From Mesorhizobium sp. Root552 (lineage in GTDB: Bacteria > Pseudomonadota > Alphaproteobacteria > Rhizobiales > Rhizobiaceae): a stretch of DNA of 64,000 nucleotides. Positions 12,317-27,341 of the stretch are shown here, piece after piece. The notes beneath the pieces are model-generated. The model did not search any database. It was not told where the DNA came from and saw nothing but the letters and a program-made list of their open reading frames with translations. The stretch spans positions 64,656-128,655 of the forward strand of contig NZ_LMFV01000062.1 of assembly GCF_001427285.1 (NCBI RefSeq), in the 5' to 3' direction. The translations under genes and the position numbers were made by a program. How positions within the stretch are numbered: position 1 is the stretch's first letter; the number at the start of each line of letters is the position of its first letter.

Positions 12317-13161
12317 GTTCGACCGAGAAGGACGAAATCGAGAAGTCATCGGCGCCGCTGATCGAGCACCTGATTGAGCTGCGCAAGCGACTGATCTGGT
12401 CGGTCGGCGGTTTCTTTGCTGCGTTCCTGGTCTGCTTCTTTTTCGCCAAGCAACTGTTCAACCTGTTGGTAGTGCCGTTCAAGTGGGCGACCCAATGGGC
12501 CGGCCTTGATCCGCAAAAGGTTGAGTTGATCTACACGGCCCCGCAGGAATTCTTCTTCACGCAGATCAAGCTTGCGATGTTCGGCGGCATGGTGATCGCC
12601 TTTCCGCTGATCGCGACACAGATCTACAAATTCATTGCACCCGGTCTCTACAAGAACGAGCGCGCCGCCTTTTTGCCGTTCCTTGTTGCTTCGCCGCTGC
12701 TATTCCTGCTGGGCGCGTCACTGGTCTATTTTTTCTTCACGCCGATGGTGATGTGGTTCTTCCTCGCCATGCAGCAGACCGGTGGGGCAGATCAGGTCCA
12801 GATTTCACTGCTGCCAAAGGTGTCGGAATACCTCAGCCTCATCATGACGCTGATCTTTTCCTTCGGCCTTGTGTTCCAGTTGCCCGTGGTAACCAGTCTT
12901 ATGGCGCGTGTTGGGCTTTTGACCTCCAAGGCACTCGCCGAAAAACGCAAGTGGGCAATCGTCATAGCCTTTGTCGTTGCGGCTGTCCTGACGCCTCCTG
13001 ATCCGCTGAGTCAGATTGGCCTCGCGCTGCCTACGATCATTCTCTACGAAATATCGATCATTACAGCGCGGATGATTGAGCGCACGCGTGCGAAGGCAGA
13101 AGCAGAACGCGAAGAAGAGGCTGCTAATTCCGACCAATCATCGCCGGAAACATCCGCTTAG
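12313..13161 (+). CDS. tatC: Twin-arginine translocase subunit TatC
   Basis: 282-residue polytopic inner-membrane protein with six predicted helices that recognises Tat signal peptides. The N-terminal signature APLIEHLIELRKRLIWSVGG carries the Glu needed for signal-peptide binding, and later family segments such as FPLIATQIYKFIAPGLYKNER and VVAAVLTPPDPLSQI are present. The last 30 residues are a charged cytosolic tail. It is coupled to tatB by a 4-bp overlap and ends the operon; the next gene belongs to an unrelated molybdo-enzyme operon. Confidence 0.96.
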   Translation: MSSTEKDEIEKSSAPLIEHLIELRKRLIWSVGGFFAAFLVCFFFAKQLFNLLVVPFKWATQWAGLDPQKVELIYTAPQEFFFTQIKLAMFGGMVIAFPLIATQIYKFIAPGLYKNERAAFLPFLVASPLLFLLGASLVYFFFTPMVMWFFLAMQQTGGADQVQISLLPKVSEYLSLIMTLIFSFGLVFQLPVVTSLMARVGLLTSKALAEKRKWAIVIAFVVAAVLTPPDPLSQIGLALPTIILYEISIITARMIERTRAKAEAEREEEAANSDQSSPETSA

Positions 13162-13340
13162 CGCCGGCGCTTCGACCAGAACTTCCTGCAACTTCCAGTA
13201 TCAGGCCTTGAAGTAGCTCAAGTTTACGTGTGCGCGTGAACGATGGCTATTGTCGTTACCGTTATTGGGTATAAGAATAACGCTTCACCGGCGTTTCAGT
13301 CGGACGCCGCGTACCAAGGTTAACACCCAGGGGAGGCTCC

Positions 13341-13841
<501 letters not shown>

Positions 13842-13843
13842 AG

Positions 13844-13932
13844 AAGGGAATAGGGCAGTATGGGAATAAGGCAATAGGGGACGATCGGTTCGATTTCCCT
13901 ACTGCCTTATTGCCCTACTCCCATACTCCCTT
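13844..13932. repeat. Imperfect palindromic intergenic repeat inside the cox operon
   Basis: Two arms of about 36 bases, 13844-13880 and 13897-13932, pair almost fully around a 16-base loop. The arms are built of short repeating units such as AGGGCAGTA, AAGGCAATA and their complements. The element sits between coxS and coxL and leaves the coxL ribosome site (GGAGGAG) outside. It resembles dispersed rhizobial intergenic palindromes, and could also set the coxS to coxL expression ratio. Confidence 0.7.
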
Positions 13933-13958
13933 ACCGAAAGTTCTGGAGGAGAACTCTG

Positions 13959-16307
13959 ATGGGTATCGAAGGCGTTGGCGCGCGGGTTTCGCGCAAGGAA
14001 GACAAAAGGTTCATCACCGGAGCAGGTCGCTATGTCGACGACATGGTGGTGCCGGGCATGAAGCATGCAATGTTCGTGCGCAGCCCGCACGCGCATGCGC
14101 AGATCAAGAAGATCGACGTCAAGGCTGCGCAGGCGATGCCGGGCGTCATCGGCGTGCTGACCGGCAAGGAACTCAAGGCTGATGGCATCGGCAACCTTAT
14201 CTGCGGCTGGATGATCCATTCCAAGGACGGCTCGCCGATGAAGATGGGCGCATGGTCGCCACTCGCCGTCGACAAGGTTCGTTACGTCGGCGATGCGGTC
14301 GTAGTCGTCGTCGCCGACACCAAGGCTCAGGCGCGTGACGCCGCAGAGGCCGTCGAGATCACCTACAAGGAATTGAAGGCTGTCACAGACGCTTCAAAGG
14401 CAATGGACAAGGGTGCGCCTCAAATCCATCCGGAAGCCGAGAACAACCTGATCTTCGACTGGGATCTCGGCAATGCCGACGAGACTGCAGCCGCCTTCAA
14501 GAAGGCAGCCCATGTCGTCAAGATGGATGTCATCAACAACCGTCTCGTCCCCAATGCCATGGAGCCGCGTGCAGCTCTCGGCCACTATGACAAGGCCGAG
14601 GATCACTACACCTGCTGGACGACCTCGCAGAACCCGCATGTTGCTCGTCTTGTCATGAGTGCGTTCTATAATGTCGCCCCTGAAAACAAGCTGCGTGTCA
14701 TCGCGCCCGATGTCGGCGGCGGCTTTGGTTCGAAAATCTACATCTACCCGGAAGAGATCGTCTGCTTGTGGGCCTCGAAGAAGACGGGCGTGCCGGTGAA
14801 ATGGGTCGCCGACCGTACCGAAAGCTTCCTCACAGACGCACATGGCCGCGACCATCACACCCATGCCGAAATGGCGTTCGACAAGGATCACAAGATTCTC
14901 GGCTTCAAGGTAGAGACCAAGGCCAATCTCGGCGCCTATATGTCGCTGTTTTCCTCAGCAACACCGACCTACCTCTATGCGACGCTGCTTTCCGGCCAGT
15001 ATGATATCCCGGCCATCCACGCCAATGTGAAGGCCATCTATACCAATACCGCGCCGGTCGATGCCTATCGCGGGGCAGGGCGGCCCGAAGCGGCATACCT
15101 CATTGAACGCATGATGGAGGTATCGGCACGTCAGTTCGGCGTCTCTCCAGCCGAGCTGCGCCGCAAGAACTTCATCAAGTCGTTCCCGCACCAGACGCCG
15201 GTCATCATGTGCTACGACGCCGGCGACTTCGCCACCTCGCTGGACACTGCGATGAAGGGCGCGGACTACGCAGGCTTCGAGAAGCGCCGCGAAAAGGCGA
15301 AGAAGGCCGGCAAGCTGCGCGGCATGGGCTTCTCCTGCTACATCGAAGCCTGCGGTATCGCACCGTCCGCCGCCGTCGGCTCGCTCGGCGCAGGTGTAGG
15401 GCTTTGGGAATCGGCCGAGGTGCGAGTTAATGCCGTTGGCACCATCGAGGTGCTCACCGGATCGCACAGCCACGGCCAGGGTCATGAGACGACCTTCGCC
15501 CAACTGGTTGCTCAACGCCTGTCGGTGCCGCTGGACTCCATCTCCATCGTTCACGGCGACACCGACAAAGTTCAGATGGGCATGGGCACCTACGGCTCCC
15601 GTTCCGGTGCCGTTGGCATGAGCGCCATCGTCAAGGCTCTCGACAAGGTCGAGGCCAAGGCAAAGAAGATCGCAGCCCACCTCATGGAGGCCGACGAGGC
15701 CGACATCGTCATCGAGAACGGCGCCTTGAAGGTGGCCGGCACGGACAAGAACGTGCCCTGGTTCCAGATGGCTCTCGCTGCCTACACGGCACATAACCTG
15801 CCCGGTGGAATGGAGCCGGGCCTGAAGGAAACCGCTTTCTACGATCCGGCGAATTTCACCTTCCCCGCGGGTTGCTACATCTGCGAGGTGGAGATCGACC
15901 CGGATACCGGCCAGACCGACATCGTCCAGTTTGTGGCGGCCGACGATTTCGGCAACATCATCAACCCGATGATTGTCGAGGGCCAGGTTCATGGCGGCGT
16001 CACGCAGGGTATCGGACAGGCCATCCTGGAAGGCGCGAACTACGATGCCAGCGGCCAGCTTCTGACGGCGAGCTACATGGACTACACCATGCCGCGTGCC
16101 GGTGATGTTCCGTCCTACAAGCTGTCGACGTCCAACACCCCGTCTCCGTCCAACCCCCTTGGCATCAAGGGCTGCGGCGAGGCGGGAGCGATTGGCGCCC
16201 CGCCGGCCGTCATCAACGCCATCACCGATGCCATCGGCACGGAAAACCTGACCATGCCGGCCACACCGCAAAAGGTGTGGGCGGCAATCCGGTCGGCGAA
16301 ACATTAA
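13959..16307 (+). CDS. coxL: Molybdenum hydroxylase large subunit, form II CO dehydrogenase-like (CoxL)
   Basis: 782-residue molybdopterin-binding catalytic subunit. The active-site loop reads AYRGAGR (about residues 369-375), the marker of form II enzymes; true form I CO dehydrogenases have AYXCSFR with the Cu-bound Cys. The catalytic Glu region GCGEAGAIG (about 738-746) and the cofactor loop [16 protein letters not shown] are present. The reaction may be oxidation of an aldehyde, heterocycle or, weakly, CO; the physiological substrate of form II enzymes is mostly unknown. A GGAGGAG site precedes the ATG. Gene order S-L-M also fits form II. There is no maturation gene such as coxD, E, F or G next to it. 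Confidence 0.9.
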
Positions 16308-16319
16308 GGAGGCACGATC

Positions 16320-17114
16320 ATGTATTCGGTCAATTATCACCGCGCTGCCTCCGTTGCCGACGCGGCAAAGCTCGCCAAGGGTGACGCAAAGCTCGTGTCT
16401 GGCGGAATGACGCTGATACCGGCGATGAAGACGCGGCTCGCCGCGCCTTCCGATCTGGTCGATATTTCCCGTATCGATGCGCTGAAGGGCATCAAGGTGT
16501 CGGGCAAAACCGTCACCATTGGTGCCGCCACCACGCACTATGAGGTCGCCACCAGCGACAAGCTCGCCAAGGCGTGTCCGGCGCTTTCGCATCTTGCCTC
16601 GATGATCGGCGATCCGGCCGTGCGCCACAGGGGCACGATCGGCGGTTCCATTGCCAACAACGACCCGGCGGCAGACTACCCGGCCGCCATGCTGGCGCTC
16701 GGGGCAACTATCGTCACCAACAAGCGCCAGATCGCGGCGGAGAAGTTCTTCAAGGGTTTGTTCGAGACGGCGTTGAAGGATGGCGAAATCGTCACGGCCG
16801 TAACTTTCACCGCGCCGGCAAAGGCAGCCTATGAAAAGTTCCGCAATCCGGCTTCGCGTTACGCCATCGTCGGCGTCTTCGTGGCCAAGGGCGCCGACGG
16901 TGTTCGCGTTGCGGTTACCGGTGCGGGCGATGATGGCGTCTTCCGCTCCAGGGAATTGGAGACGGCTCTTGCCAAGCAGTTTGATGCGGCAGCACTTACC
17001 TCGGCAAAGGTTCCGGCAAGAGCCTTGATGACCGACATGCACGCTTCGGCGGACTATCGCGCTCATTTGATCGTGGTAATGGCGCGGCGCGCGGTGGCGG
17101 CAGCCAACGCCTGA
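16320..17114 (+). CDS. coxM: Molybdenum hydroxylase medium subunit, FAD-binding (CoxM-like)
   Basis: 264-residue FAD subunit that takes electrons from the iron-sulfur subunit and hands them to the final acceptor. The two FAD motifs of the family are visible: a first one in SGGMTLIPAMKTRL (the AGGxxL-type loop) and a second in GTIGGSIANNDPAADYPAA. The C-terminal CO dehydrogenase flavoprotein domain follows. AAGGAGG lies a few bases before the ATG at 16320, and the gap to coxL is only 12 bp, so these are co-transcribed. A strong terminator follows 21 bp after the stop. Confidence 0.9.
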   Translation: MYSVNYHRAASVADAAKLAKGDAKLVSGGMTLIPAMKTRLAAPSDLVDISRIDALKGIKVSGKTVTIGAATTHYEVATSDKLAKACPALSHLASMIGDPAVRHRGTIGGSIANNDPAADYPAAMLALGATIVTNKRQIAAEKFFKGLFETALKDGEIVTAVTFTAPAKAAYEKFRNPASRYAIVGVFVAKGADGVRVAVTGAGDDGVFRSRELETALAKQFDAAALTSAKVPARALMTDMHASADYRAHLIVVMARRAVAAANA

Positions 17115-17135
17115 TTTCGCCTCGATTCGACTGAA

Positions 17136-17170
17136 AAAGGCCGGTGCCAAGCACCGGCCTTTGTTATTTA
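17136..17170 (+). terminator. Intrinsic terminator of the coxSLM operon
   Basis: 12-bp perfect stem AAAGGCCGGTGC / GCACCGGCCTTT with a CAA loop, followed by GTTATTTAT. It closes the molybdo-enzyme operon. Confidence 0.85.
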
Positions 17171-17341
17171 TGCCACATCAAAAATTCGACCATCGTCGTA
17201 TTGCGGTGGAATGGCACAATTATATCGTTGCACGATCGTATCGTGGCGCGACCATATCGCGACACGAGCGATTACGCCGCGCGATCATGATCAGGCCGAG
17301 CGTCGTGTCCAACAAAAAACAAAAATCGTTTGGAGGGATTC

Positions 17342-18724
17342 ATGGCAACGCAGACCGAGAACTGGTTTAGCCGGTCGCGCACCGTGGCGCGGCCGGGCTA
17401 CAGCCGGTGGATGGTGCCGCCAGCCGCACTTTGTGTTCATTTGTGTATTGGTCAGGCCTACGCTTACAGCGTGTTCAACCTGCCGATGACAAAGCTCATC
17501 GGCATTACCGATTCGGCTCCGGATGACTGGAAGCTGACGGAACTGGGCTGGATATTTTCCATCGCCATTTTCTTCCTTGGCGTTGCCTCGGCGGTTTTCG
17601 GCCGTTGGGTCGAGGAGGGCGGCCCGCGCAAGGCCATGTTCACCGCTGCGTGCTGCTGGGCTGGCGGGTTCCTTATTTCCGCTGCTGGCGTGGCCACCCA
17701 CAATTTGTGGCTGATCTATCTGGGCTACGGCTTTCTGGGCGGCATCGCACTTGGCATCGGCTACATCTCGCCGGTCTCGACGCTTATCAAATGGTTCCCT
17801 GACCGTCCCGGCATGGCAACGGGCATGGCCATCATGGGCTTCGGTGGTGGTGCGTTCATCGCGTCCCCACTATCGGTGTGGTTGATGAAGCAATTCACCA
17901 CCGAAACGCATATCGGCGTGATGGAAACCTTTATCGTGCTGGGCGTCGTCTATTTCGTCTTCATGGTCGTCGGCTCGATTATCGTTCGCGTACCGCCGGA
18001 TGACTGGAAGCCGGAAGGCTATGTCGCACCCAAGGCCAACAAGCTGATCTCCAGCAACAACGTCTATGTTTATGATGCGCTTAAAACCCCCCAGTTCTGG
18101 CTGATCTGGGTGGTCCTGTGCGTCAACACCACGGCTGGTATAGGCGTGCTTGGCCAGGCTTCGGCAATGAGCCAGGAAATGTTCCCCGGCCAGATCACGC
18201 CCATCGCAGCCGCAGGCCTCGTCGGCCTGATGAGCCTATTCAACATGGGCGGGCGTTTTGCCTGGGCGACGACGTCCGACTATCTCGGACGCCGCAACAC
18301 GTACTTCGTGTTCATGGTGCTGGGTTTCATCCTTTACTGTCTGGTGCCTTACATGGGCTCGATCGGCAGCGTCGCCGGTTTTGCGCTCTGCTTCTGCATC
18401 ATCATCTCGATGTATGGCGGCGGCTTCGCGACGGTGCCAGCTTATCTGCGTGATATGTTTGGTGTCCGCTATGTCGGCGCCATCCACGGCCTGCTGCTTA
18501 CCGCATGGTCGGCAGCGGGCATCTTCGGGCCGGTGTTGGTGAACTATATCCGGGAATACAACGTCACCCACAATGTGCCGAAGGCGGATGCCTACAACAC
18601 CACCATGTATATCATGGCAGGATTGTTCGTGATCGGCTTGATCTGCAACTTCTTCGTCAAGGCGGTCAATGAACGCTACCACATGAAGGTCGATGACCGG
18701 GCCATGTCCGCGGCAACCGCATAA
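17342..18724 (+). CDS. Oxalate/formate antiporter (OFA) family MFS transporter
   Basis: 460-residue, twelve-helix major facilitator protein of the OFA group, whose known member OxlT exchanges oxalate for formate. Visible family features are VHLCIGQAYAYSVFNLPMT in helix 1, the ALGIGYISPVSTLIKWFPDR segment in helix 4 and its following loop, and RDMFGVRYVGAIHGLLLTAW in the second half. A GGAGGG site precedes the ATG at 17342. The substrate is uncertain; a monocarboxylate or oxalate is likely. A 40-codon membrane protein gene follows 19 bp later. No oxalate-degrading enzymes lie nearby. Confidence 0.85.
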   Translation: MATQTENWFSRSRTVARPGYSRWMVPPAALCVHLCIGQAYAYSVFNLPMTKLIGITDSAPDDWKLTELGWIFSIAIFFLGVASAVFGRWVEEGGPRKAMFTAACCWAGGFLISAAGVATHNLWLIYLGYGFLGGIALGIGYISPVSTLIKWFPDRPGMATGMAIMGFGGGAFIASPLSVWLMKQFTTETHIGVMETFIVLGVVYFVFMVVGSIIVRVPPDDWKPEGYVAPKANKLISSNNVYVYDALKTPQFWLIWVVLCVNTTAGIGVLGQASAMSQEMFPGQITPIAAAGLVGLMSLFNMGGRFAWATTSDYLGRRNTYFVFMVLGFILYCLVPYMGSIGSVAGFALCFCIIISMYGGGFATVPAYLRDMFGVRYVGAIHGLLLTAWSAAGIFGPVLVNYIREYNVTHNVPKADAYNTTMYIMAGLFVIGLICNFFVKAVNERYHMKVDDRAMSAATA

Positions 18725-18743
18725 CGGATCGGGAGATTTGATC

Positions 18744-18866
18744 ATGCAATCAAATGATAGCCAGACCACAAAAGCGCAGCTTGTCATGGCTTGGGGCTTT
18801 GTCGGTATTCCCCTGCTGTGGGGTATTTCGCAGACGCTGCTCAACGCCTTGCAACTGTTCAAATAG
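18744..18866 (+). CDS. Small (40-residue) single-helix membrane protein paired with the OFA transporter
   Basis: Short reading frame starting MQSNDSQTTKAQLVMAWGF and ending LLNALQLFK. It has a polar N-terminus and one hydrophobic helix (LVMAWGFVGIPLLWGISQTL). Small proteins of this type are annotated as 'MFS transporter small subunit' directly behind OFA transporters in other bacteria, and the position here, 19 bp after the transporter stop with a GGGAG site before the ATG, fits. Its role is unknown but an accessory subunit is likely. It is followed by a clear terminator. Confidence 0.75.
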   Translation: MQSNDSQTTKAQLVMAWGFVGIPLLWGISQTLLNALQLFK

Positions 18867-18897
18867 AACGGGCGCAAAGGTTGATCTTGGTGATCGG

Positions 18898-18926
18898 CGG
18901 CCGGGAGTTCCGGCCGTCTTTTCTTT
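18898..18926 (+). terminator. Intrinsic terminator after the OFA transporter operon
   Basis: Perfect 7-bp stem CGGCCGG / CCGGCCG with GAGTT loop, then TCTTTTCTTTG. It isolates the following guanidine-II leader from upstream transcription. Confidence 0.8.
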
Positions 18927-18965
18927 GTCTCCGCACTGGGTGCGCAGGTGTCGCAGTTTTCAACC

Positions 18966-18994
18966 TTGAACTGACGCAGTCCAGCGTCTAGGAA
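18966..18994 (+). promoter_or_regulatory. Possible promoter for the atpB-like gene
   Basis: TTGAAC at 18966-18971 with TAGGAA 17 bases later (18989-18994). The predicted start of transcription falls at about 19000, exactly at the first hairpin of the guanidine-II-like leader. The match to consensus is only fair. Confidence 0.3.
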
Positions 18995-19000
18995 GCGCGT

Positions 19001-19061
19001 GTGCGGGACGGCCCGCGCCTCAGAAGAACATTCCGGGACGACCCGGCCCCCAGCAAGGAGG
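19001..19061 (+). ncRNA. Guanidine-II (mini-ykkC) riboswitch-like leader upstream of an atpB-like gene
   Basis: Two short hairpins with ACGR loops, the hallmark of the mini-ykkC class. P1 is GCGGG-ACGG-CCCGC (19003-19016, extendable by a G-U and a G-C pair to 19001-19018). P2 is CCGGG-ACGA-CCCGG (19033-19046). The linker is about 14-16 bases. The ribosome site AAGGAGG (19055-19061) follows P2 by 8 bases, as expected for a translational switch that frees the site when guanidinium binds. Known members of the class mostly precede SMR guanidinium exporters; here the next gene is an F0 a-subunit homologue. Confidence 0.8.
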
Positions 19062-19067
19062 GTCGGT

Positions 19068-19817
19068 ATGGCCGGACCCATCGACCAGTTCAAGATCAAG
19101 CCGTTGGTCAGCCTCGGAGAGGTCGGCGGCTACGAGATCGCCTTTACCAATTCCGCAGCATATATGGCACTGACGGTTGTTGCCGCCGGCGGTTTCCTGT
19201 TCCTCTCGACGATACGCCGCGCCTTGGTTCCCGGTCGTTGGCAAGCTTCCGCCGAGATGCTCTACGAGTTCGTTGCAAAAATGCTGCGCGAAAATGCCGG
19301 TGAACATGGCATGCGCTTTTTCCCACTCGTCTTTTCATTGTTCATGTTCGTGCTGACGGCCAACCTGATCGGCATGTTCCCCTATGCCTTCACGGTCACC
19401 AGCCACATCGTGGTAACCTTTGCATTGGCCATGCTGGTGTTCCTCGTGGTGACGATTTACGGCGTCGTCCTCAATGGATTCGGCTTCCTGCGTCTTTTCC
19501 TGCCTTCGGGCGTGCCGCTTGCGCTGGCCCCGCTTATAGTGCCGATTGAGATTGTTTCTTATTTTTCACGGCCCGTCAGCCACTCGGTGCGCCTGTTCGC
19601 GGTCATGCTTGCCGGCCACATCACGCTGAAGGTTTTCGCCGGCTTTGTCGTCAGCCTTGCCGGGATTGGGTCAGTTGGCCTCGTTGCCGCCATCTTGCCT
19701 TTGCTGATGACAGTCGCCATCACCGCATTGGAGTTTCTGATGTCGGTAATCCAGGCGTACATATTCACCATGCTGGCCTGCATGTATCTGAATGACGCCA
19801 TCGTTTCATCTCACTAG
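19068..19817 (+). CDS. Solitary F0 ATP synthase subunit a-like protein (AtpB paralogue)
   Basis: 249-residue polytopic membrane protein clearly homologous to ATP synthase subunit a, the proton-channel subunit. The essential Arg is present (R175 in [10 protein letters not shown]), as are H184 (AGHIT), E222 (LEFLM) and Q229 (QAYIF), the alphaproteobacterial half-channel residues. The Asn that usually follows in RLFANMLAGH is V179 here. No atpI, atpE or atpF gene is near, although these normally flank atpB. AAGGAGG precedes the ATG at 19068, and a two-hairpin guanidine-II-like leader lies directly upstream; gdx follows 158 bp later. It may be a specialised second copy, or a relocated main copy; a full genome is needed to tell. 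Confidence 0.85.
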
Positions 19818-19869
19818 CGTTTGTGTTGCTGCACATACGTAAGGCATGGCTGCTATGCATCGCTGCGTC

Positions 19870-19897
19870 TTGCGAGATCGCCCGAAAGGCATAAACT
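19870..19897 (+). promoter_or_regulatory. Possible promoter of gdx
   Basis: TTGCGA at 19870-19875, a 16-base spacer, and TAAACT at 19892-19897. Transcription would begin at about 19903, just before the first leader hairpin. This would let gdx be expressed separately from the atpB-like gene. Weak consensus. Confidence 0.3.
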
Positions 19898-19904
19898 TGC
19901 GGGC

Positions 19905-19966
19905 AGGAGGAACGACCTCCCCATATCGGGAAAAATGTCCGGGACGGCCCGGCCTTGAAAAAGGAG
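19905..19966 (+). ncRNA. Guanidine-II (mini-ykkC) riboswitch of gdx
   Basis: Second copy of the two-hairpin leader. P2 is perfect: CCGGG-ACGG-CCCGG (19939-19952). P1 is GGAGG-A-ACGA-CCTCC (19906-19920) with one extra A before the ACGA loop. The linker is 18 bases. After P2, a small CCTT-GAAA-AAGG hairpin (19953-19964) overlaps the ribosome site AAGGAG, which could mask it. The class is known to switch on gdx/sugE-type guanidinium exporters, which matches the gene downstream. Confidence 0.82.
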
Positions 19967-19975
19967 AGCCGCTCC

Positions 19976-20296
19976 ATGGCTTGGGTCTATCTCGTCGTTG
20001 CCGGGCTTCTTGAAGTCGTCTGGGCCTTCTACATGAAGAAGTCGGAGGGCTTTTCGCTTCTTACGCCCTCCATCATCACCTTGATTACTATGATCGCCAG
20101 CTTTGGCTTGCTGTCGATTTCCATGAGGTCATTGCCTCTCGGTACCGCTTATACGATCTGGACCGGCATCGGTGCCGTCGGCGCTTTCGTGGTCGGCATT
20201 GCCGTGCTGAGCGAGCCGATCACGCCCATGCGTGTGTTGGCCGCAGCTCTGATCGTCTCCGGTCTTGTCATGATGAAACTGTCGAGCTCGCACTAG
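19976..20296 (+). CDS. gdx: Guanidinium exporter Gdx (SugE subtype of the SMR family)
   Basis: 106-residue small multidrug resistance protein with four helices, working as an antiparallel dimer that exports guanidinium in exchange for protons. The central Glu is E13 (LLEVVWA); the Gdx-type residues S42, Y59 and W62 (YTIWTGIGAVGAF) are all present, which separates it from EmrE-type drug pumps. The ATG at 19976 has AAGGAG about 9 bases upstream. The guanidine-II leader directly before it supports the function independently. Confidence 0.93.
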   Translation: MAWVYLVVAGLLEVVWAFYMKKSEGFSLLTPSIITLITMIASFGLLSISMRSLPLGTAYTIWTGIGAVGAFVVGIAVLSEPITPMRVLAAALIVSGLVMMKLSSSH

Positions 20297-20374
20297 GGTC
20301 AGGACCCTGGAGCTTCGGCAAGAAGCAGTCTGGCCGCAACGGCCATGAGAACCGCTCCAGGACGTAAATAAAAA

Positions 20375-20407
20375 GGCCGGCGCGCTGGAGGCCAACACGC
20401 GCCGGCC
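20375..20407. repeat. GC-rich hairpin in the gdx/GNAT intergenic region
   Basis: Perfect 10-bp inverted repeat GGCCGGCGCG / CGCGCCGGCC around a 13-base loop, preceded on the left by AAATAAAAA. Read on the minus strand the stem is followed by T-rich sequence, so it may end transcripts from the GNAT gene. Confidence 0.6.
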
Positions 20408-20465
20408 AGCGGCGCTTGGGAGGGGACTGGCCGCATAAACCGATATGGCAGGACCGTTGGAAGTT

Positions 20466-20518
20466 GCACGGCCGGCGCGGTGAGTGTGCAATAGTCGGGA
20501 TCGTGCGCCGGCCTGTGC
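20466..20518. repeat. Long GC-rich inverted repeat in the gdx/GNAT intergenic region
   Basis: Arms 20466-20478 and 20505-20518 pair as GCAC-GGCCGGCGC with GCGCCGGCC-T-GTGC, one bulge, 26-base loop. With the hairpins at 20375 and 20585 it makes a structured 240-base stretch without coding sense. Function unknown. Confidence 0.5.
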
Positions 20519-20584
20519 ATTAACTAAACTGGTCCGCCGTCTCCTTTTCGAGAGTGTGCCTCGATAATTCCATGAACTACGGTC

Positions 20585-20627
20585 GCCAACTGTGAGGAGT
20601 TTCACATTTGGCGTTAACTTTTTTCTC
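20585..20627 (+). terminator. Intrinsic-type terminator on the plus strand
   Basis: Stem GCCAA-C-TGTGA / TCACA-T-TTGGC (20585-20612, one mismatch) with loop GGAGTT, followed after GTTAAC by a run of six T. It could end a long gdx transcript or a separate small RNA covering 20300-20620. Confidence 0.5.
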
Positions 20628-20672
20628 GGCTGCTCGTCTGCCCGGGACAGGGCGCAACGCCAAGCTTTAGCT

Positions 20673-21170
20673 TCAGATTTCCCGTGCGAAATAGCGTACG
20701 GTCTTTTTGCCGCCGTGGATCGCAGCGGTGCCGATTTCGTGAAATCCGAGCCGGGTGTGAAAGGCATCGGACGCCGGGTTCGGCGGGTCGGCGTTAACCT
20801 CGCACGTTACCACACCGTGACCTGCGCGCTTGGCTTGCTCGAAAAGGTCTTCGTAAAAGCGCCGCGCGTGGCCCCGCCCGCGCGCTGCTTCATCGACTAC
20901 CACGCGGTCTACATAGACGAAACGGGGATAGCGCTGTTTGAGCCACAGGAAGTTGGGGCTGTCATAGCTTGCGTCCTGGTCGAATGTCATGATGAAGGCT
21001 TCGACTGTGCCGATCCGGCGAGCATAGAAGGCTTGGCCGAGCAGCAGGCTTAGCCGTTCTTCTTCGAGCCAGGACAATTCTTCCGCATGGCGATTGTTGA
21101 GCGAAAGGATAGCGGCTTCGTCGGAAGGCGCGACAGCGTCTATTGGAAGCAGTTTCGTCTCGCTTGTCAT
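20673..21170 (-). CDS. GNAT-family N-acetyltransferase
   Basis: 165-residue acetyltransferase of the GNAT superfamily. The acetyl-CoA binding motif A is visible as VDRVVVDEAARGRGHARRFYEDLF (Q/RxxGxG/A type: RGRGHA), and the protein ends with the usual beta-strand around FHTRLGFHEIGTAAIHGGKK. The C-terminal half resembles the group annotated as 'GNAT family, predicted ribosomal-protein or small-molecule acetylases'; the substrate is unknown. The start ATG at 21170 overlaps the cutC stop by 4 bp (ATGA), so it is co-translated with cutC. A 376-bp gap with several hairpins follows. Confidence 0.85.
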   Translation of the reverse strand: MTSETKLLPIDAVAPSDEAAILSLNNRHAEELSWLEEERLSLLLGQAFYARRIGTVEAFIMTFDQDASYDSPNFLWLKQRYPRFVYVDRVVVDEAARGRGHARRFYEDLFEQAKRAGHGVVTCEVNADPPNPASDAFHTRLGFHEIGTAAIHGGKKTVRYFAREI

Positions 21171-21925
21171 GCGCGTGCCGCTGCTATCGTTGCCGCAACC
21201 AGTGCCTCGTCGGTCACTGTGTTGCGATATTCCCGATCCAGGTCTGTGCCGCCCATTCCCACATGCGGGTTGCGGTAGCTCATGGCGCTCGGCACATCCT
21301 TGAGTGAGGCGAAATGCATTTCCGTGAGGCGGGTTTTGCGGCGGACAGCAGCGATATTGTCGGGGTCGAGCGCGCCACAGCCGAGGATGATGATGCGGCC
21401 TGCCGCCTGTTTCACAAGCTCAGCCAGAAGTTCCGAACCCTCCGCTGCTGTGTCGCGCTGGCCGCTCGTCAGCACGCGCCCGACCTTGCAGCGGATAAGC
21501 GCCTCCAGCGCCTCTGAAGGGTCGCGCGTCATGTCGAAGGCACGATGGCAGGTCACGTTGAGAGGCCCGGCCGCAGTGACGAGATCGCTCATGCGCCTCT
21601 CATCGATGGTGCCGTCGGCATTGAGGCATCCTACGATTACGCCGGCAACGCCGAGGTCGCGCAATGCAAGCACGTCCGCCACCATAGAGCGATGCTCGGC
21701 CGGGCTGTAGAGAAAGTCGCCGCCACGCGGCCGTACGATGACGTGGAACGGGATTCTTGCCAACTCCAGGGCCGCACGCACTGTGCCGAAACTTGGCGTG
21801 ATCCCACCCTCAAGCAGGCTAGCGCATAACTCCACACGGTCGGCTCCCGCGTTCTGCGCGGCAATCAGTCCATCTATTCCTTCGACGCAGATTTCGATCA
21901 GCGGCAGGCGGGCATGGTCGCTCAA
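21167..21925 (-). CDS. cutC: CutC family protein
   Basis: 252-residue TIM-barrel protein of the CutC family, named for copper homeostasis although that role is doubtful in bacteria; the enzymatic activity is not established. Family features are LIEICVEGIDGLIAAQNAGADRVELC-type N-terminus, the PRGGDFLYSP segment, the TCHRAFDMTRDP segment and RVLTSGQ. The frame begins with TTG at 21925, as no ATG is found in a suitable place; the ribosome site is weak. It is divergent from dusA and overlaps the GNAT gene. Confidence 0.9.
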   Translation of the reverse strand: MSDHARLPLIEICVEGIDGLIAAQNAGADRVELCASLLEGGITPSFGTVRAALELARIPFHVIVRPRGGDFLYSPAEHRSMVADVLALRDLGVAGVIVGCLNADGTIDERRMSDLVTAAGPLNVTCHRAFDMTRDPSEALEALIRCKVGRVLTSGQRDTAAEGSELLAELVKQAAGRIIILGCGALDPDNIAAVRRKTRLTEMHFASLKDVPSAMSYRNPHVGMGGTDLDREYRNTVTDEALVAATIAAARA

Positions 21926-22087
21926 GGCAGAAGTCCATCAATGATTGCGCAAGCCGAAACCGTAGCATCGCTGCTCCGAAGGCAAAAGCGGCCTTTGTTA
22001 GGCCAAGCTTGCGGCCTGCCTCTGCAACAGGCTATGCAGCACCTGTATGGAGCGCCTGATCGGGCGATCCTCGGAAGCACGGGAATA

Positions 22088-23119
22088 ATGACGGACAAGC
22101 CGCAACAGCATCGGCCGAGTTATGACACCATCGCTGGTGCGCCCATTGTCGCCGTGGCGCCTATGATGGATTGGACCGACCGCCACTGTCGCTTCCTTCA
22201 CCGCCAGTTGACGGGCAGGGCGCTGCTCTACACGGAAATGGTGGTGGCCGATGCTGCCATCCAAGGTGCGCGTGAGCGCCTGCTCGGCTTCCACCCCGCC
22301 GAGCATCCCGTTGCATTGCAGCTTGGCGGCTCCGACCCGTTGAAGCTGGCGGAGGCAGCGCGCATAGGTGCGGACTTCGGCTACGACGAGATCAACCTCA
22401 ACGTTGGCTGCCCGTCCGACCGTGTTCAGTCCGGCACTTTCGGCGCTTGCCTGATGAAGACGCCTGAATTGGTGGCGGATTGTGTGGTCGCCATGAAGGC
22501 GACGGTCAAGGTGCCGGTCACCGTCAAGTGCCGCATCGGCGTCGACGAGCAGGATCCCGAACCGGCCCTCAATACGCTTGCCGATGCGGTCTTTGCAGCG
22601 GGTGCCGATGCTTTGTGGGTCCATGCACGCAAGGCGTGGCTGGAGGGGTTGAGCCCCAAGGAAAATCGCGAAATCCCGCCGCTGGACTATGAGCGCGTCT
22701 ATCGGCTCAAGGCAAAAAACCCTAGCCGTTTCATCGGTATAAATGGGGGGATTCAGACTCTGGATGAGTCCGCCAACCATCTCGCCCGGGTGGACGGTGT
22801 CATGCTCGGGCGGGCCGCATATCACACGCCGGGGGTTTTGGTTGGTATCGATGCGTTGCTGGCTCACGATGCCGCCGGCAGCTTCGATTTCGAAGTGCTG
22901 ATCGGTGCGATGGCCGACTACGCCTCGGCCCACATCGCGAAGGGTGGGCGGCTCGGCCATATCACGCGTCATATGGTCGGGTTGTTCCACGGTCTTCCCG
23001 GCGCTCGGCGCTGGCGGCAAATCCTTTCCACCGACGCCACCCGGCCGGGGGCAGGGCCGGATATCCTGTATAGGGCCTTTGCGGAAGTCGATTTCACCCG
23101 CGACGACGAAGCGGCCTGA
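22088..23119 (+). CDS. dusA: tRNA-dihydrouridine(20/20a) synthase DusA
   Basis: 343-residue FMN flavoprotein that reduces uridine to dihydrouridine in the D-loop of tRNAs with NADPH. The N-terminal APMMDWTDRHCRFLHRQL and the segment NVGCPSDRVQSGTFGACLM with the catalytic Cys are the DusA signatures (Dus B and C differ). GINGGI and VDGVMLGRAAYHTP at the phosphate-binding end are also present. The ATG at 22088 (MTDKPQQ) was chosen; the frame is open further upstream to 21914 but that would overlap cutC regulatory sequence. Confidence 0.93.
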   Translation: MTDKPQQHRPSYDTIAGAPIVAVAPMMDWTDRHCRFLHRQLTGRALLYTEMVVADAAIQGARERLLGFHPAEHPVALQLGGSDPLKLAEAARIGADFGYDEINLNVGCPSDRVQSGTFGACLMKTPELVADCVVAMKATVKVPVTVKCRIGVDEQDPEPALNTLADAVFAAGADALWVHARKAWLEGLSPKENREIPPLDYERVYRLKAKNPSRFIGINGGIQTLDESANHLARVDGVMLGRAAYHTPGVLVGIDALLAHDAAGSFDFEVLIGAMADYASAHIAKGGRLGHITRHMVGLFHGLPGARRWRQILSTDATRPGAGPDILYRAFAEVDFTRDDEAA

Positions 23120-23173
23120 ACAAGGCAACGCCGGAACGCTGCCTTGTTTCCGTCTTCCCAAATGGAAGCGTGG

Positions 23174-24043
23174 CTACCGTTCCAGTCGGGCCAGCAGCGC
23201 CGACGTATCCCAACGACTACCACCCATCGCCTGCACGTCCTTGTAGAACTGATCGACAAGCGCCGTCACCGGCAGGGAGGCACCGTTGCGGTTGGCTTCC
23301 GCCAAGCAGATGCCGAGATCCTTTCGCATCCAGTCGATTGCGAAACCGTGGTCATACTTGCCGACATTCATGGTCTTGTGGCGGTTTTCCATCTGCCATG
23401 AACCGGCTGCACCCTTGGAGATGACTTCTACCACCTTTTCGATGTCCAGCCCCGCCTTCTTGCCGAAATGAATACCTTCGGAGAGGCCCTGCACCAATCC
23501 GGCGATGCAGATCTGGTTGATCATCTTGGTCAACTGGCCCGAACCTGCTGGTCCCATCAGGCCGATCATGCGCGCATAGGCGTCAATGACCGGTCTTGCC
23601 GTGTCGAATGCGCCCTGCCGGCCCCCGACCATGACGGTCAATACGCCGTTCTCCGCTCCCGCCTGGCCGCCGGAAACCGGCGCGTCGAGAAAGGCAAAGC
23701 CTGCCGCTTCAGCCTTGGTTGAGAGTTCACGTGCGACCTCGGCCGAAGCCGTGGTGTTATCGATGAAGATCGCGCCCGTTTTCATCGAACTGAAAGCGCC
23801 ATCGGTTCCGATGGTCACCGAGCGCAGGTCGTCGTCGTTGCCGACGCAGGAGAATACGAAGTCCTTGCCCTCGGCTGCGGCCGCGGGTGTCTTTGCCAGC
23901 TTGCCGCCATGTTGCGCCACCCATTGCTCGGCCTTCGCCGTGGTGCGGTTGTAGACGGTGACATCGTGGCCACCCTTGTTTTTCAGGTGTGCGGCCATCG
24001 GGTAACCCATCACACCGAGACCGAGGAAAGCCACTGCTGCCAT
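23174..24043 (-). CDS. Beta-hydroxyacid dehydrogenase (tartronate semialdehyde reductase / 3-hydroxyisobutyrate dehydrogenase type)
   Basis: 289-residue Rossmann-fold oxidoreductase. The nucleotide-binding FLGLGVMGYPMAAHL lies at the N-terminus, with NRT after the second strand, which tends to go with NADPH use. The substrate-binding APVSGGQAGAENG and the catalytic Lys in GQLTKMINQ follow. The family includes GarR, MmsB and succinic semialdehyde reductases, and I cannot choose between them. The start at 24043 (MAAVAFLG) has AAGGCAA upstream; an ATG seven codons earlier is possible. It stands alone, convergent with dusA. Confidence 0.87.
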   Translation of the reverse strand: MAAVAFLGLGVMGYPMAAHLKNKGGHDVTVYNRTTAKAEQWVAQHGGKLAKTPAAAAEGKDFVFSCVGNDDDLRSVTIGTDGAFSSMKTGAIFIDNTTASAEVARELSTKAEAAGFAFLDAPVSGGQAGAENGVLTVMVGGRQGAFDTARPVIDAYARMIGLMGPAGSGQLTKMINQICIAGLVQGLSEGIHFGKKAGLDIEKVVEVISKGAAGSWQMENRHKTMNVGKYDHGFAIDWMRKDLGICLAEANRNGASLPVTALVDQFYKDVQAMGGSRWDTSALLARLER

Positions 24044-24162
24044 TTTGATATTGCCTTTTCGCACGCCGAGTTTCTCGACGCAGGTCTAGGCGTTAGCGAA
24101 AATTCGTCAAGACCACGTTCGTTAGCCCAGCCCTCGGAGCATAAGGGACGACCGAAGCCGGG

Positions 24163-24993
24163 TCAGCGCTTCAGGTGGCGTGTGATGCGCCGTTCGATCC
24201 AATCGATGGCGTGGCGCAGTGTCTCCACGATCAAGAGGTAGATGATGGCTGCCCAAAGATAGGACTGGAAATCGAAGGTGCGCGAGTAAGTCAACCTCGT
24301 GATCCCCATCAGGTCGTAGACCGTGATGATGGCAACGATGGCCGAGCCTTTGATCATAAGGATCACTTCATTGCCATATGGCCTCAAAGCCACAATCAGC
24401 GCCTGCGGTAGTATGATCTTGCGCAGCGTCTGCAATTTGTGCAGGCCGAGCGAGGCGGCACCCTCCCACTGGCCCTTCGGTACGGACTGGATCGCACCGC
24501 GCAGGATTTCGGCCTGATAGGCAGCCGTGTTGAGCGAGAAGGCGAAAATCGCGCAATTGAACGCCTCGCGGAAGAACCACCACAGTCCGACCGCATCAAG
24601 CTCCGGCCTGAACGAGCCGAAACCGTAGTAGACAAGGAAGGCCTGCGCCAGAAGCGGCGTACCCCGAAAGAAATAGACATAGGCGTAGGCCAGCCCAGCG
24701 ATGACCGGGTTGCGCGACATGCGCCCATAGGCGATCGGAACCGACAAAATTGCCCCGACCACGATGGATATGCCGACCAGCGAAAGCGTGATGCCGATGC
24801 CGGACACGTAACCGGGAGCATATTTCTGGAACAGTTCGGTGTTCCATGCGGAGATGAGGTAGGCGACGAGCCCGATCCCCATGAACGCCCAGAGCACCAC
24901 CAGGCCGTACCCGAGGATACGCTGGCGCGACCAGCCGTGAGGCGGCAGGGGCGGCCGCTCGACGCTGTCGGCAGTTTGCATCGAGGCGCTCAT
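24163..24993 (-). CDS. Polar amino acid ABC transporter permease (HisM type)
   Basis: 276-residue inner-membrane permease of a histidine/arginine/ornithine/octopine-type importer. It has about five helices and the EAA loop for ATPase contact (EGAASLGLHKLQTLRKIILPQAL). An unusually long N-terminal cytosolic extension (about 35 residues before the first helix) is present. The ATG at 24993 overlaps the stop of the HisQ-type gene as ATGA, showing translational coupling. It is last in a binding protein - permease - permease cluster that lacks an ATPase gene. Confidence 0.88.
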   Translation of the reverse strand: MSASMQTADSVERPPLPPHGWSRQRILGYGLVVLWAFMGIGLVAYLISAWNTELFQKYAPGYVSGIGITLSLVGISIVVGAILSVPIAYGRMSRNPVIAGLAYAYVYFFRGTPLLAQAFLVYYGFGSFRPELDAVGLWWFFREAFNCAIFAFSLNTAAYQAEILRGAIQSVPKGQWEGAASLGLHKLQTLRKIILPQALIVALRPYGNEVILMIKGSAIVAIITVYDLMGITRLTYSRTFDFQSYLWAAIIYLLIVETLRHAIDWIERRITRHLKR

Positions 24994-25703
24994 CGGTGCG
25001 CCTCCTGCTTGCCGACCCATCGCTCAATGGCGCTGATGCCGATGGATGAAACTATTGCTAGAGCCAGATAGATTAGCGCGGCGACGCCGAAAAACAGGAA
25101 TGCATGCTTGGTCACGCGCGCGGCAACGCCGGCCTGCCGCAATATGTCGGTCAGCCCGATTGCCGAAACCAGCGATGTGTCCTTGAGCAGGATCAGCCAC
25201 AGATTGGCGAGGCCGGGCAGTGCGATGCGGATTAGTTGCGGAAGAACCACAAGCCGCATCGTCTGTGCCTTGGAAAGGCCAACGGCAAAGCCACCTTCGT
25301 ACTGTCCCTGCGGAATAGCCCGGAAGGCCGAAAGAAACACCTCGCTGGCGTAGGATGAAAACACAACACCAAGTGCAATCATGCCGGATACGAAGCTGTT
25401 CACCTCGACGGTGGCTTCCGGATTGAACAGGCGCACCGCCTGCTGGATTCCAATCTGGGCGCCGAAGAACACGAGGAACAGCGTTAGCAGTTCCGGCAGG
25501 CCACGGAAGATCGTCGTATAGATATCGCCGGCCAGTCTTAGCGAACGCTCGCTCGACTGCTTGGCCAACGCGATCAGAAACCCGATGAGAAGGCCGACTG
25601 GCAAGGTCGCGAGCGCCAGGCAAACAGTGACGAGCGCGCCATAGGCGATATCGTCCAGCCACCCTTCCGATCCCCAGCTCAGCAGCGTCCAAACGCTCTG
25701 CAT
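24990..25703 (-). CDS. Polar amino acid ABC transporter permease (HisQ type)
   Basis: 237-residue inner-membrane permease, first of the pair. The EAA loop reads EGGFAVGLSKAQTMRLVVLPQLIRIALPG, and IFRGLPELLTLFLVFF is the family's conserved segment after the first helices. It forms the heterodimeric channel with the HisM-type subunit whose gene overlaps its end. It is 130 bp downstream of the binding-protein gene; a stable hairpin lies between them. Confidence 0.9.
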   Translation of the reverse strand: MQSVWTLLSWGSEGWLDDIAYGALVTVCLALATLPVGLLIGFLIALAKQSSERSLRLAGDIYTTIFRGLPELLTLFLVFFGAQIGIQQAVRLFNPEATVEVNSFVSGMIALGVVFSSYASEVFLSAFRAIPQGQYEGGFAVGLSKAQTMRLVVLPQLIRIALPGLANLWLILLKDTSLVSAIGLTDILRQAGVAARVTKHAFLFFGVAALIYLALAIVSSIGISAIERWVGKQEAHR

Positions 25704-25787
25704 GGCCGACCGTCTCCCCTATGGACCCTCGTTCCACGCTACGCCGCCAAGCGCGCGCGGTTATTGTTGTTGTTCAAAGTTCGATAT

Positions 25788-25816
25788 GCAAACGGCGGGA
25801 GTTCCCCGCCGTTTGC
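25788..25816 (-). terminator. Stem-loop between the binding-protein and permease genes
   Basis: Perfect 12-bp stem GCAAACGGCGGG / CCCGCCGTTTGC with a 5-base loop, directly after the binding-protein stop. On the minus strand no T-run follows, so it more likely protects the binding-protein mRNA end and lowers expression of the permeases, as in other importer operons. On the plus strand a CTTTTTATT tail is present. Confidence 0.65.
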
Positions 25817-25833
25817 TCTTTTTATTCCGATGA

Positions 25834-26616
25834 TCAGGAATCGCCGCCATATACGTCAAACTTGAAGTACTTGTCGTTGATTTCTTTGTACTTTCCGTTT
25901 GCGCGAATGGCATCGATCGCTGCATTGAACTGGTCCCGAAGCGCGGTCTCGCCCTTCCGGATTGCAATGCCGGCGCCCGGGCCGTGGATTTCCACAACTG
26001 GCTTGATCGCGCCGATCAGCTTGCAGCATGCGCCGTCGGGTGAATCCAGCCACTGCGAAAGCACGACGATATCGTCATTGACGGCATCGAGGCGGCCATT
26101 GGCGAGGTCGAGTTGGTATTCCTGCGCCGTCGGATATGGCTTTACCGTGCTGTCGGTATAGGTCGCCGTCGAATAGTTGAAGTGGGTGGTCGAAGCCTGA
26201 ACGCCGATGGTCTTGCCGGCGAGGTCTTCCTTGGTCACGCCTTTAATGTCGCTATCCTTGGGCGCCGCGATTGCCGGCGGGGTATTGTAGTACTTGTTGG
26301 TGAAATCGACCTTTTCCATGCGCTCCGGCGTGATCGACATCGAAGCGATGATGGCATCGAACTTGCCAGCCTGGAGAGCGGGAATGATGCCGTCCCAGTC
26401 CTGCGCGATGAACTCGCACTTGACCTTCATTTCGTCGCACAGCGCCTGTGCGATGTCGACGTCGAAGCCTTCGAGCTTGCCGTCGGCGGTCAGGTTGTTG
26501 AATGGAGGGTAGGCGCCTTCGGTGCCGATCTTTAGCACTTTTTCCTGTGCCTGGGCCGTGCCCAGCGCTAACAGCGCGGCTGATGCCGCGAGTGCGATAC
26601 GCATTGCTATACGCAT
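25834..26616 (-). CDS. Periplasmic polar amino acid-binding protein (HisJ/ArgT type)
   Basis: 260-residue solute-binding protein with a cleavable signal peptide (MRIAMRIALAASAALLALG, cut after AQA). The SBP family 3 signature GKLEGFDVDIAQALCDEMK follows about residue 45-65, and the mature protein shows the expected two-lobe pattern. The Cys pair CCKL near residue 197 and DGACC region are as in lysine/arginine/ornithine-binding proteins. The ligand is probably a basic amino acid or an opine, not provable here. GAGAGG precedes the ATG. It leads the importer operon. Confidence 0.9.
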   Translation of the reverse strand: MRIAMRIALAASAALLALGTAQAQEKVLKIGTEGAYPPFNNLTADGKLEGFDVDIAQALCDEMKVKCEFIAQDWDGIIPALQAGKFDAIIASMSITPERMEKVDFTNKYYNTPPAIAAPKDSDIKGVTKEDLAGKTIGVQASTTHFNYSTATYTDSTVKPYPTAQEYQLDLANGRLDAVNDDIVVLSQWLDSPDGACCKLIGAIKPVVEIHGPGAGIAIRKGETALRDQFNAAIDAIRANGKYKEINDKYFKFDVYGGDS

Positions 26617-26819
26617 AATGGTCCTCTCTTTAGAATTAAGGATGTCGTGAACCGACTCCCCTTTGGGGCGATGCTCCCGATCACCCTCTGGCCGGATACT
26701 CCCACTGTTTTCAGCAGAAAAGCAACTGCAAAACCACGCTCAGAGGCCACCTTGAACCGCTTGTCTAGGCGCGCCAAAGGCGGATCCGCTGGGTTTGATA
26801 TGGTGCCGTTGGGGAAGGC

Positions 26820-27341
26820 TCAGGCGCTTCGCCCGCCTTTCAGGCCGGTCGTCCGTTCTATGAAATCGGCTATCGACTTGATGTCATCGAGGCGGAACAC
26901 CGGCAGTGTCTCATTGGGCTGCGGATGATCGGCGGCAACCGCCACGATATGGGGATCATTGGACGCGAGCGGCGACCTGTCCTTTGTATCGGTACGCCGC
27001 GCCTCTATCTTGAGATGGGCTTCGCGCTTGTAGCCTTCGATCAGCACGATGTCGCTCGGCGCCAGCCGCGTCAGTATCGTCTCCAGCGTTGGTTCGCTTT
27101 CTGATCTCAATTCATGCATCAGCGCCCAGCGTTGACCGGAAACGATCGCTACTTCCGAAGCGCCTGCTTTGCGGTGTCGGAAACTGTCGGTGCCTTCCTT
27201 GTCGATGTCGAAGTCGTGGTGGGCGTGCTTGACTGTGGCGACCTTCCAGCCCCGCTCGACCAGTTCGCTTACCAGTCTCTCCGTCAGTGTCGTCTTGCCG
27301 GAGTTCTTCCAGCCGGTGATGCCGAAAACGCGTTGGGTCAT
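26820..27341 (-). CDS. mobB: Molybdopterin-guanine dinucleotide biosynthesis protein MobB
   Basis: 173-residue P-loop GTP-binding protein that assists MobA in forming the guanine dinucleotide form of the molybdenum cofactor. The Walker A motif is GWKNSGKTTLTERLV near the N-terminus, followed by the VKHAHHDFDIDKEGTDSFRH segment and LIEGYKREAHLKIE, all typical. mobA is not in the window although moaA lies 1.7 kb away on the same strand. The neighbouring coxSLM enzyme would probably need the cytosine form of the cofactor, so MobB most likely serves other enzymes. Confidence 0.93.
   Translation of the reverse strand: MTQRVFGITGWKNSGKTTLTERLVSELVERGWKVATVKHAHHDFDIDKEGTDSFRHRKAGASEVAIVSGQRWALMHELRSESEPTLETILTRLAPSDIVLIEGYKREAHLKIEARRTDTKDRSPLASNDPHIVAVAADHPQPNETLPVFRLDDIKSIADFIERTTGLKGGRSA

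Follow-up and report, generated by a model that had tools for sequence, protein, structure and literature searches.

The window analysed here is a stretch of 64,000 nucleotides from Mesorhizobium sp. Root552 (contig NZ_LMFV01000062.1, forward strand). It contains a gene for a paralogue of the ATP synthase a-subunit, preceded by a guanidine-II riboswitch and followed by a second, weaker guanidine-II element and an SMR transporter gene (Table 1). Upstream of the riboswitch, at 17345-18866, are genes for an L-lactate/oxalate-type MFS transporter and then for a 40-aa 'MFS transporter small subunit' (NF047966).

Table 1. Positions in the window of the riboswitch elements, the atpB paralogue and the SMR gene
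Feature	Position	Strand	Evidence
Guanidine-II riboswitch aptamer of the atpB paralogue	19000..19046	+	Rfam RF01068, conservation, covariation
P1 stem-loop of the aptamer	19001..19018	+	
P2 stem-loop of the aptamer	19033..19046	+	
Predicted ligand-free hairpin, P2 3' strand and C-run paired with the ribosome site	19043..19066	+	minimum-free-energy fold of 18995-19080
Ribosome binding site AAGGAGGG of the atpB paralogue	19055..19062	+	sequence
F0F1 ATP synthase subunit a paralogue, 249 aa (ATG at 19068)	19068..19817	+	Pfam/NCBIfam, alignment, tree, fold model
Second guanidine-II element, weaker; loop of 5 bases in the first hairpin	19903..19952	+	27.0 bits
Ribosome binding site AAGGAGA of the SMR gene	19961..19967	+	sequence
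SugE/Gdx-type SMR transporter, 106 aa, presumed guanidinium/H+ antiporter	19976..20296	+	Pfam PF00893, NCBIfam SugE

The initial annotation had taken two ACGR hairpins and a ribosome site before an atpB-like gene for a guanidine-II riboswitch. The Rfam covariance model agrees, with a score of 34.4 bits for RF01068 against a gathering score of 32. P1 (GTGCGGG-ACGG-CCCGCGC) and P2 (CCGGG-ACGA-CCCGG) are separated by 14 bases, and the ACGR loops of both are closed by the conserved GG/CC. The match has an E value of 6.5e-5 in its own genome, where the next best match outside the neighbourhood reaches 18.8 bits only. Two ACGR hairpins are found upstream of the paralogue at 77 of 81 loci (the window and the best 80 of 109 relatives). 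Covariation was assessed in 59 of these 77 elements, near-identical ones having been dropped. In this set 94.4% of the cells are paired, and over the 12 stem pairs 64 cells are double-changed, compared with 20.8 after shuffling; slid controls give 3-12. In 27 of the 59 elements P2 lacks its outermost pair. The own-genome E value, the conservation and the covariation thus make the element more than a chance match, and the last two rule out a fortuitous pair of hairpins. As a member of this class the element would be predicted to bind guanidinium and to raise translation.

The arrangement is kept in relatives. In 35 whole genomes, hand-chosen from the best 80 of the 109 loci, the paralogue always has a guanidine-II match upstream and on its own strand, approximately 12-265 nt from its start, and 33 of these matches exceed the gathering score. 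Four loci (L023, L027, L030 and L039; three Pseudochrobactrum-like and one Shinella) carry the gene with V179 and M225 and have no recognisable element, so the gene has been retained there without the switch. The assembly at L023 is labelled Bacillus subtilis SK6B4 and carries a Pseudochrobactrum-like locus; it is probably mislabelled or contaminated.

The initial annotation called the atpB-like gene solitary. This is correct for ATP synthase genes, as no other atp gene was seen when the ORFs of window positions 13000-27000 were read. It does not hold for the SMR gene, which adjoins the paralogue with its own weaker guanidine-II element and had been overlooked. This second element begins after a gap of 85 bases and scores below the gathering threshold of 32 bits (E 0.0055 for 1551 bases). 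Ten of the 35 relatives' genomes also carry a second element immediately behind the paralogue. The SMR protein matches PF00893 with 96 bits, and its best NCBIfam model is SugE, with 120.6 bits against a cut-off of 126. The initial annotation proposed a search for atpB next to gdx in related genomes; an SMR gene directly follows the paralogue in 28 of the best 80 of 109 relatives. It follows the paralogue in 20 of 24 short-leader relatives counted by script. The fetched flanks, about 6 kb long, show no SMR gene in the other 52 of the 80.

The paralogue is a clear member of the a-subunit family, scoring 213 bits with PF00119 (ATP-synt_A, cut-off 33.9) and 361.4 bits with NF004482 (cut-off 225). 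It is not the only atpB of the genome. There are two PF00119 genes, which rules out the relocation of a single copy, and the main atpB lies on another contig in the order atpI-atpB-atpE-atpF'-atpF, as read from the ORFs (an atpI-like gene and two b-type subunits). The two proteins are identical at 157 of 249 residues. Exactly two PF00119 genes are likewise present in all 35 relatives' genomes. A phylogeny of 146 proteins, obtained by a quick search with no bootstrap, places the 81 paralogues in one clade apart from 65 main AtpB proteins (SH-aLRT 98). The main set comprises 66 fetched rows less one duplicate. Second fetches of one genome, second copies of about 150 bits and split fragments are not part of it, and the loci of the own family in it are the best-scoring 30.

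The residues R175, H184, E222 and Q229, described as intact by the initial annotation, are kept in 81 of 81 paralogues (the window and the best 80 of 109 relatives). The Asn-to-Val change at position 179 that it pointed out proves to be fixed: all 81 paralogues have Val, and 64 of the 65 main copies have Asn (one has Ser). At position 225 all 81 paralogues have Met, and 64 of the 65 main copies have Val (one has Ile). Only these two positions separate the groups completely. Ala107 (80 of 81 paralogues), Asn76, Thr129, His172, Ile228 and Met235 also differ between the groups, with some overlap. In E. coli numbering, set by the anchors R175=R210 and Q229=Q252, position 179 corresponds to aN214, a helix turn away from the essential arginine, and position 225 comes three residues beyond the aH245 site of the proton-relay Glu/His. 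The side of the helix on which V179 and M225 would lie was reasoned from spacing (i+4 from R175 and i+3 from E222), not measured.

The predicted fold is that of a plain a-subunit with two long rotor-facing hairpin helices (model pLDDT 80). Its best structural match is yeast subunit a (Z 19.1, 3.3 A, 245 residues). Positions invariant in both the paralogue and the main set number 25 of 48 in the arginine-bearing rotor-side helix, 16 of 37 in the last helix, which is the other rotor-side one, 11 of 22 in the third helix and 2 of 22 in the first. As the other rotor-side helix is kept no better than the third, the rotor face does not stand out by its conservation.

The aN214 site has been studied in E. 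coli. A passage in PMC8754430 proposes that a water held by aN214 and aQ252 protonates the leading cD61 beside aR210. On this account the residue that is always changed in the paralogues sits in the inlet half-channel. The same source describes hydrophobic residues or Gly at this site as natural in other synthases. Replacement of aN214 by Val, Leu, Gln or Glu is reported, in a passage of PMC11121307 that cites earlier work, to permit growth on succinate while ATP-coupled proton conductance falls. Val179 is therefore compatible with a working synthase, as far as these passages go.

The paralogue was followed through other genomes. Named genomes were scanned and yielded 109 confirmed relatives; the best 80 of these, 67-78% identical, were fetched. 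The hosts of these 80 include Ensifer, Shinella, Rhizobium, Aminobacter, Ochrobactrum-type Brucella, Pseudochrobactrum, Phyllobacterium, Afipia, Kaistia, Bosea, Reyranella and others. All 18 close paralogue pairs have dN/dS values of 0.029-0.142, which indicates purifying selection, and by their sequences the paralogues look like working proteins. Among 121 genomes of the own family, eight have a second full-length, high-scoring atpB, one has the paralogue split across two contig ends and one has a remnant. A guanidine-II match is listed beside the paralogue in seven of the eight; the eighth has two hairpins in its sequence that the guanidine-II search missed. The remnant (L162:777-908) consists of C-terminal residues 206-249, with Met225, Ile228 and Met235, and stands directly before a guanidine-II element and an SMR gene in an own-family genome, an apparent case of decay.

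One relative, 70.7% identical and annotated as F0F1 ATP synthase subunit A, resides on a 477-kb Phyllobacterium plasmid. It has Val179, Met225 and both hairpins upstream, and no other atp gene is present among the five surrounding features. The own-family counts and the plasmid copy indicate that the gene is sporadic and probably moves between genomes. A pattern search for the coding motif RLF-x-V-M-L-A-G-H found it in one of 385 class-wide genomes, the own genome, a count that says little about spread, given the strictness of the pattern and the sampling of just four further genomes from the own order.

The leader of the window has a predicted ligand-free fold in which the 3' strand of P2 pairs with the ribosome site, so that P2 and the pairing that governs ribosome access would be mutually exclusive. 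This fold is a model and not proof, as its z-score of -0.69 is no better than that of shuffled sequences. The switch model therefore leans on the known class more than on energy. In the solved guanidine-II class guanidinium stabilises a loop-loop complex of the stem-loops, according to a passage in PMC5486947.

The leader between element and gene is long, 95-267 nt, in 51 of the 76 relatives with an element (best 80 of 109). A short ORF ends at or near the atpB start at 33 of these 51 loci, compared with 13.2 +/- 2.4 in shuffled sequences, a test that counts related sequences as independent. Examples are L055:5842-6003 and L008:5773-6003. Such an ORF occurs at only two of nine Ensifer and one of six Aminobacter loci, and its amino acids are poorly conserved. 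At L055 an extra hairpin after P2 holds the start region of the short ORF (z -5.65). In our reading, translation of the leader ORF may be coupled to that of atpB. Rfam searches of ten relatives returned guanidine-II and two tRNAs, and the long leaders among them hold no further family.

Guanidine-II elements also precede other genes in these and related loci. Ten of the best 80 of 109 relatives have a ChaA-like antiporter gene upstream of the paralogue, and at L033, L065 and L072, three loci examined in detail, ChaA-like genes have guanidine-II elements of their own. ChaA-like cation/proton antiporter genes stand behind such elements at L033:4598-5752, L065:4373-5524, L218, L246, L252 and L268. 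Those of L033 and L065 score 175.7 and 194.5 bits with NCBIfam ChaA, below the cut-off of 505; the proteins could be guanidinium antiporters or could serve cation homeostasis. At three Agrobacterium-/Rhizobium-type loci a divergent guanidine-II element precedes an orphan gene for MrpF/PhaF, a component of a Na+/H+ antiporter complex. At L065 the gene (3771-4064, minus strand; Pfam 59.9 bits) follows an element at 4156-4200 on the same strand; the other two loci are L265 and L266. Besides the atpB paralogue, the orphan MrpF is a second case in which a guanidine switch precedes an isolated component of a proton-coupled complex.

Sixty further guanidine-II regions were hand-picked from the matches, three of them inside paralogue neighbourhoods. 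The next recognised gene is of the SMR type in 29 (with one more identified by eye), the PACE (chlorhexidine-efflux) type in 16, the type that we take to be urea-carboxylase-associated in six, the ChaA-like type in four, and the MrpF and ammonium-transporter types in two each. The PACE type (PF05232) is borne out by Pfam, with examples at L227, L247, L254 and L264, and its place behind these elements suggests that guanidinium may be a native substrate of some PACE pumps. A 70-residue piece of the presumed urea-carboxylase-associated type had no Pfam match. In Aminobacter (L251 and L259) an ammonium-transporter-type gene stands about 300 bases behind the element; the piece scores 19.4 with Pfam, below the cut-off of 23.2. 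The genes that share guanidine-II elements place the atpB paralogue inside a recognisable guanidine regulon.

Genomic comparison gives good support to the view that the paralogue is a guanidine-linked alternative F0 a-subunit, and those checks proposed with the initial annotation that sequence data can answer speak for its interpretation. All 36 genomes have just one PF00137 c-subunit gene, which adjoins the main atpB (coordinates compared by eye); this single gene rules out a second complete ATPase. The spare a-subunit, if it works as an a-subunit, must therefore use the housekeeping rotor. On balance it is probably a replacement a-subunit, induced by guanidine and exchanged into F0F1 on that rotor. 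A rise in guanidinium would lead the guanidine-II RNA to retain P2 and so expose the ribosome site, allowing synthesis of the alternative a-subunit. The second element would lead to synthesis of the SMR exporter as well. The new a-subunit would be built into F0 beside the existing c-ring, replacing the housekeeping a-subunit. The inlet half-channel would then be altered next to the essential arginine, by the change from Asn to Val at the aN214 site and from Val to Met at position 225.

Why the half-channel would be altered is a separate matter. Guanidinium and the catalytic arginine have the same chemical group, and at a polar, water-filled spot guanidinium could compete for the c-ring carboxylate. 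Removal of that spot may allow ATP synthesis to continue with guanidinium present. Within the alternative a-subunit reading, tolerance of the half-channel to guanidinium is a tentative choice of reason and less likely than not, with control of ATP-driven pumping ranked close behind. No paper on inhibition of F0 by guanidinium was found in the open-licence literature searched. In simulations described in a passage of PMC11121307, aN214L breaks the inlet proton chain, and for this reason an inhibitor or brake fits equally.

A role as a brake leads to the strongest competing explanation, in which the spare a-subunit enters F0 and slows ATP-driven proton pumping or leak, and guanidinium tolerance plays no part. 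According to a passage of PMC12186494, two protons enter through Gdx for each guanidinium, so that export would lower the gradient and such a brake would spare ATP. The reduced conductance of the E. coli substitutions points the same way, as does a statement in PMC8754430 that aN214L had the greatest effect, among the mutants tested there, on the pH dependence of transient dwells. The ChaA-like antiporters and the orphan MrpF behind guanidine-II elements are also of proton-coupled kinds. Against these points, the synthases of Alphaproteobacteria have other means of restraining hydrolysis. We regard this explanation as rather unlikely.

The initial annotation also allowed that the protein acts on its own. 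In such a role it would work outside F0F1, forming a channel for protons or guanidinium or assisting the SMR exporter. The distance from other atp genes in the window, the location of the only c-subunit gene on another contig and the 28 relatives with a directly downstream SMR gene would fit. However, the catalytic residues are invariant in all 81 paralogues, which makes this the weaker half of the initial interpretation, and most of the 80 relatives show no SMR gene in their flanks. No lone a-subunit is known to conduct, and we consider independent action improbable. The last explanation, that the riboswitch belongs to the exporter with atpB caught between by chance, or is itself a chance look-alike, has the adjacency of the two genes in the window in its favour and is refuted by conservation, provided that the RNA binds guanidinium: the element precedes the paralogue far more regularly (77 of 81 loci) than an SMR gene follows it (28 of 80), its stems covary, the protein is under purifying selection and 10 of 35 genomes have a second element downstream, which leaves this very improbable.

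The exchange of an a-subunit under guanidine control would have several consequences. In its most specific form the proposal is that guanidinium induces an a-subunit with an inlet half-channel closed to this ion, and that F0 is a physiological target attacked at the catalytic-arginine site; this we offer as speculative and rather doubtful. Guanidine is toxic and is sensed widely in bacteria, and an ATP synthase part behind a guanidine switch would name a concrete target. If the proposal is true, then together with the ChaA-like antiporters and the orphan MrpF it would describe a guanidine stress response that acts on the proton circuit, beyond export and breakdown. The paralogues are also natural, long-selected variants of aN214, a residue that bioenergetics laboratories mutate by hand. 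No report of a guanidine-switched a-subunit was found in the open-licence literature, a scope that does not include the founding guanidine-II paper.

The known guanidine-II riboswitches have two ACGR stem-loops with GG/CC closing pairs before the ribosome site and are predicted translational ON switches. The element (mini-ykkC) before gdx/sugE in E. coli has the same stem-loops, closing pairs and place before the ribosome site as the one described here. In contrast to that switch, the gene controlled here encodes an ATP synthase subunit, not an exporter or a guanidine enzyme, and in the majority of relatives the leader is long and often holds an ORF. The paralogue shares length, fold, the residues R175, H184, E222 and Q229 and the C-terminal YLNDA stretch with the housekeeping F0 subunit a of Hyphomicrobiales (NF004482). 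It differs in its location outside the atp operon, its separate clade and its fixed or nearly fixed V179, M225, A107, N76 and T129. Other second a-subunit genes, with matches of about 140-155 bits, occur in 5 of the 121 own-family genomes and presumably belong to N-type (Na+) F-ATPases. N-type second F-ATPases come with a complete second operon, whereas here there is a single a-subunit gene and one c-subunit gene per genome. Resistant duplicate target enzymes are second, altered copies of an essential part that are kept for a toxic condition, and the likeness of the paralogue to these is one of resemblance only. With the paralogue, a bacterium would be swapping one F0 subunit for another on a small-molecule cue.
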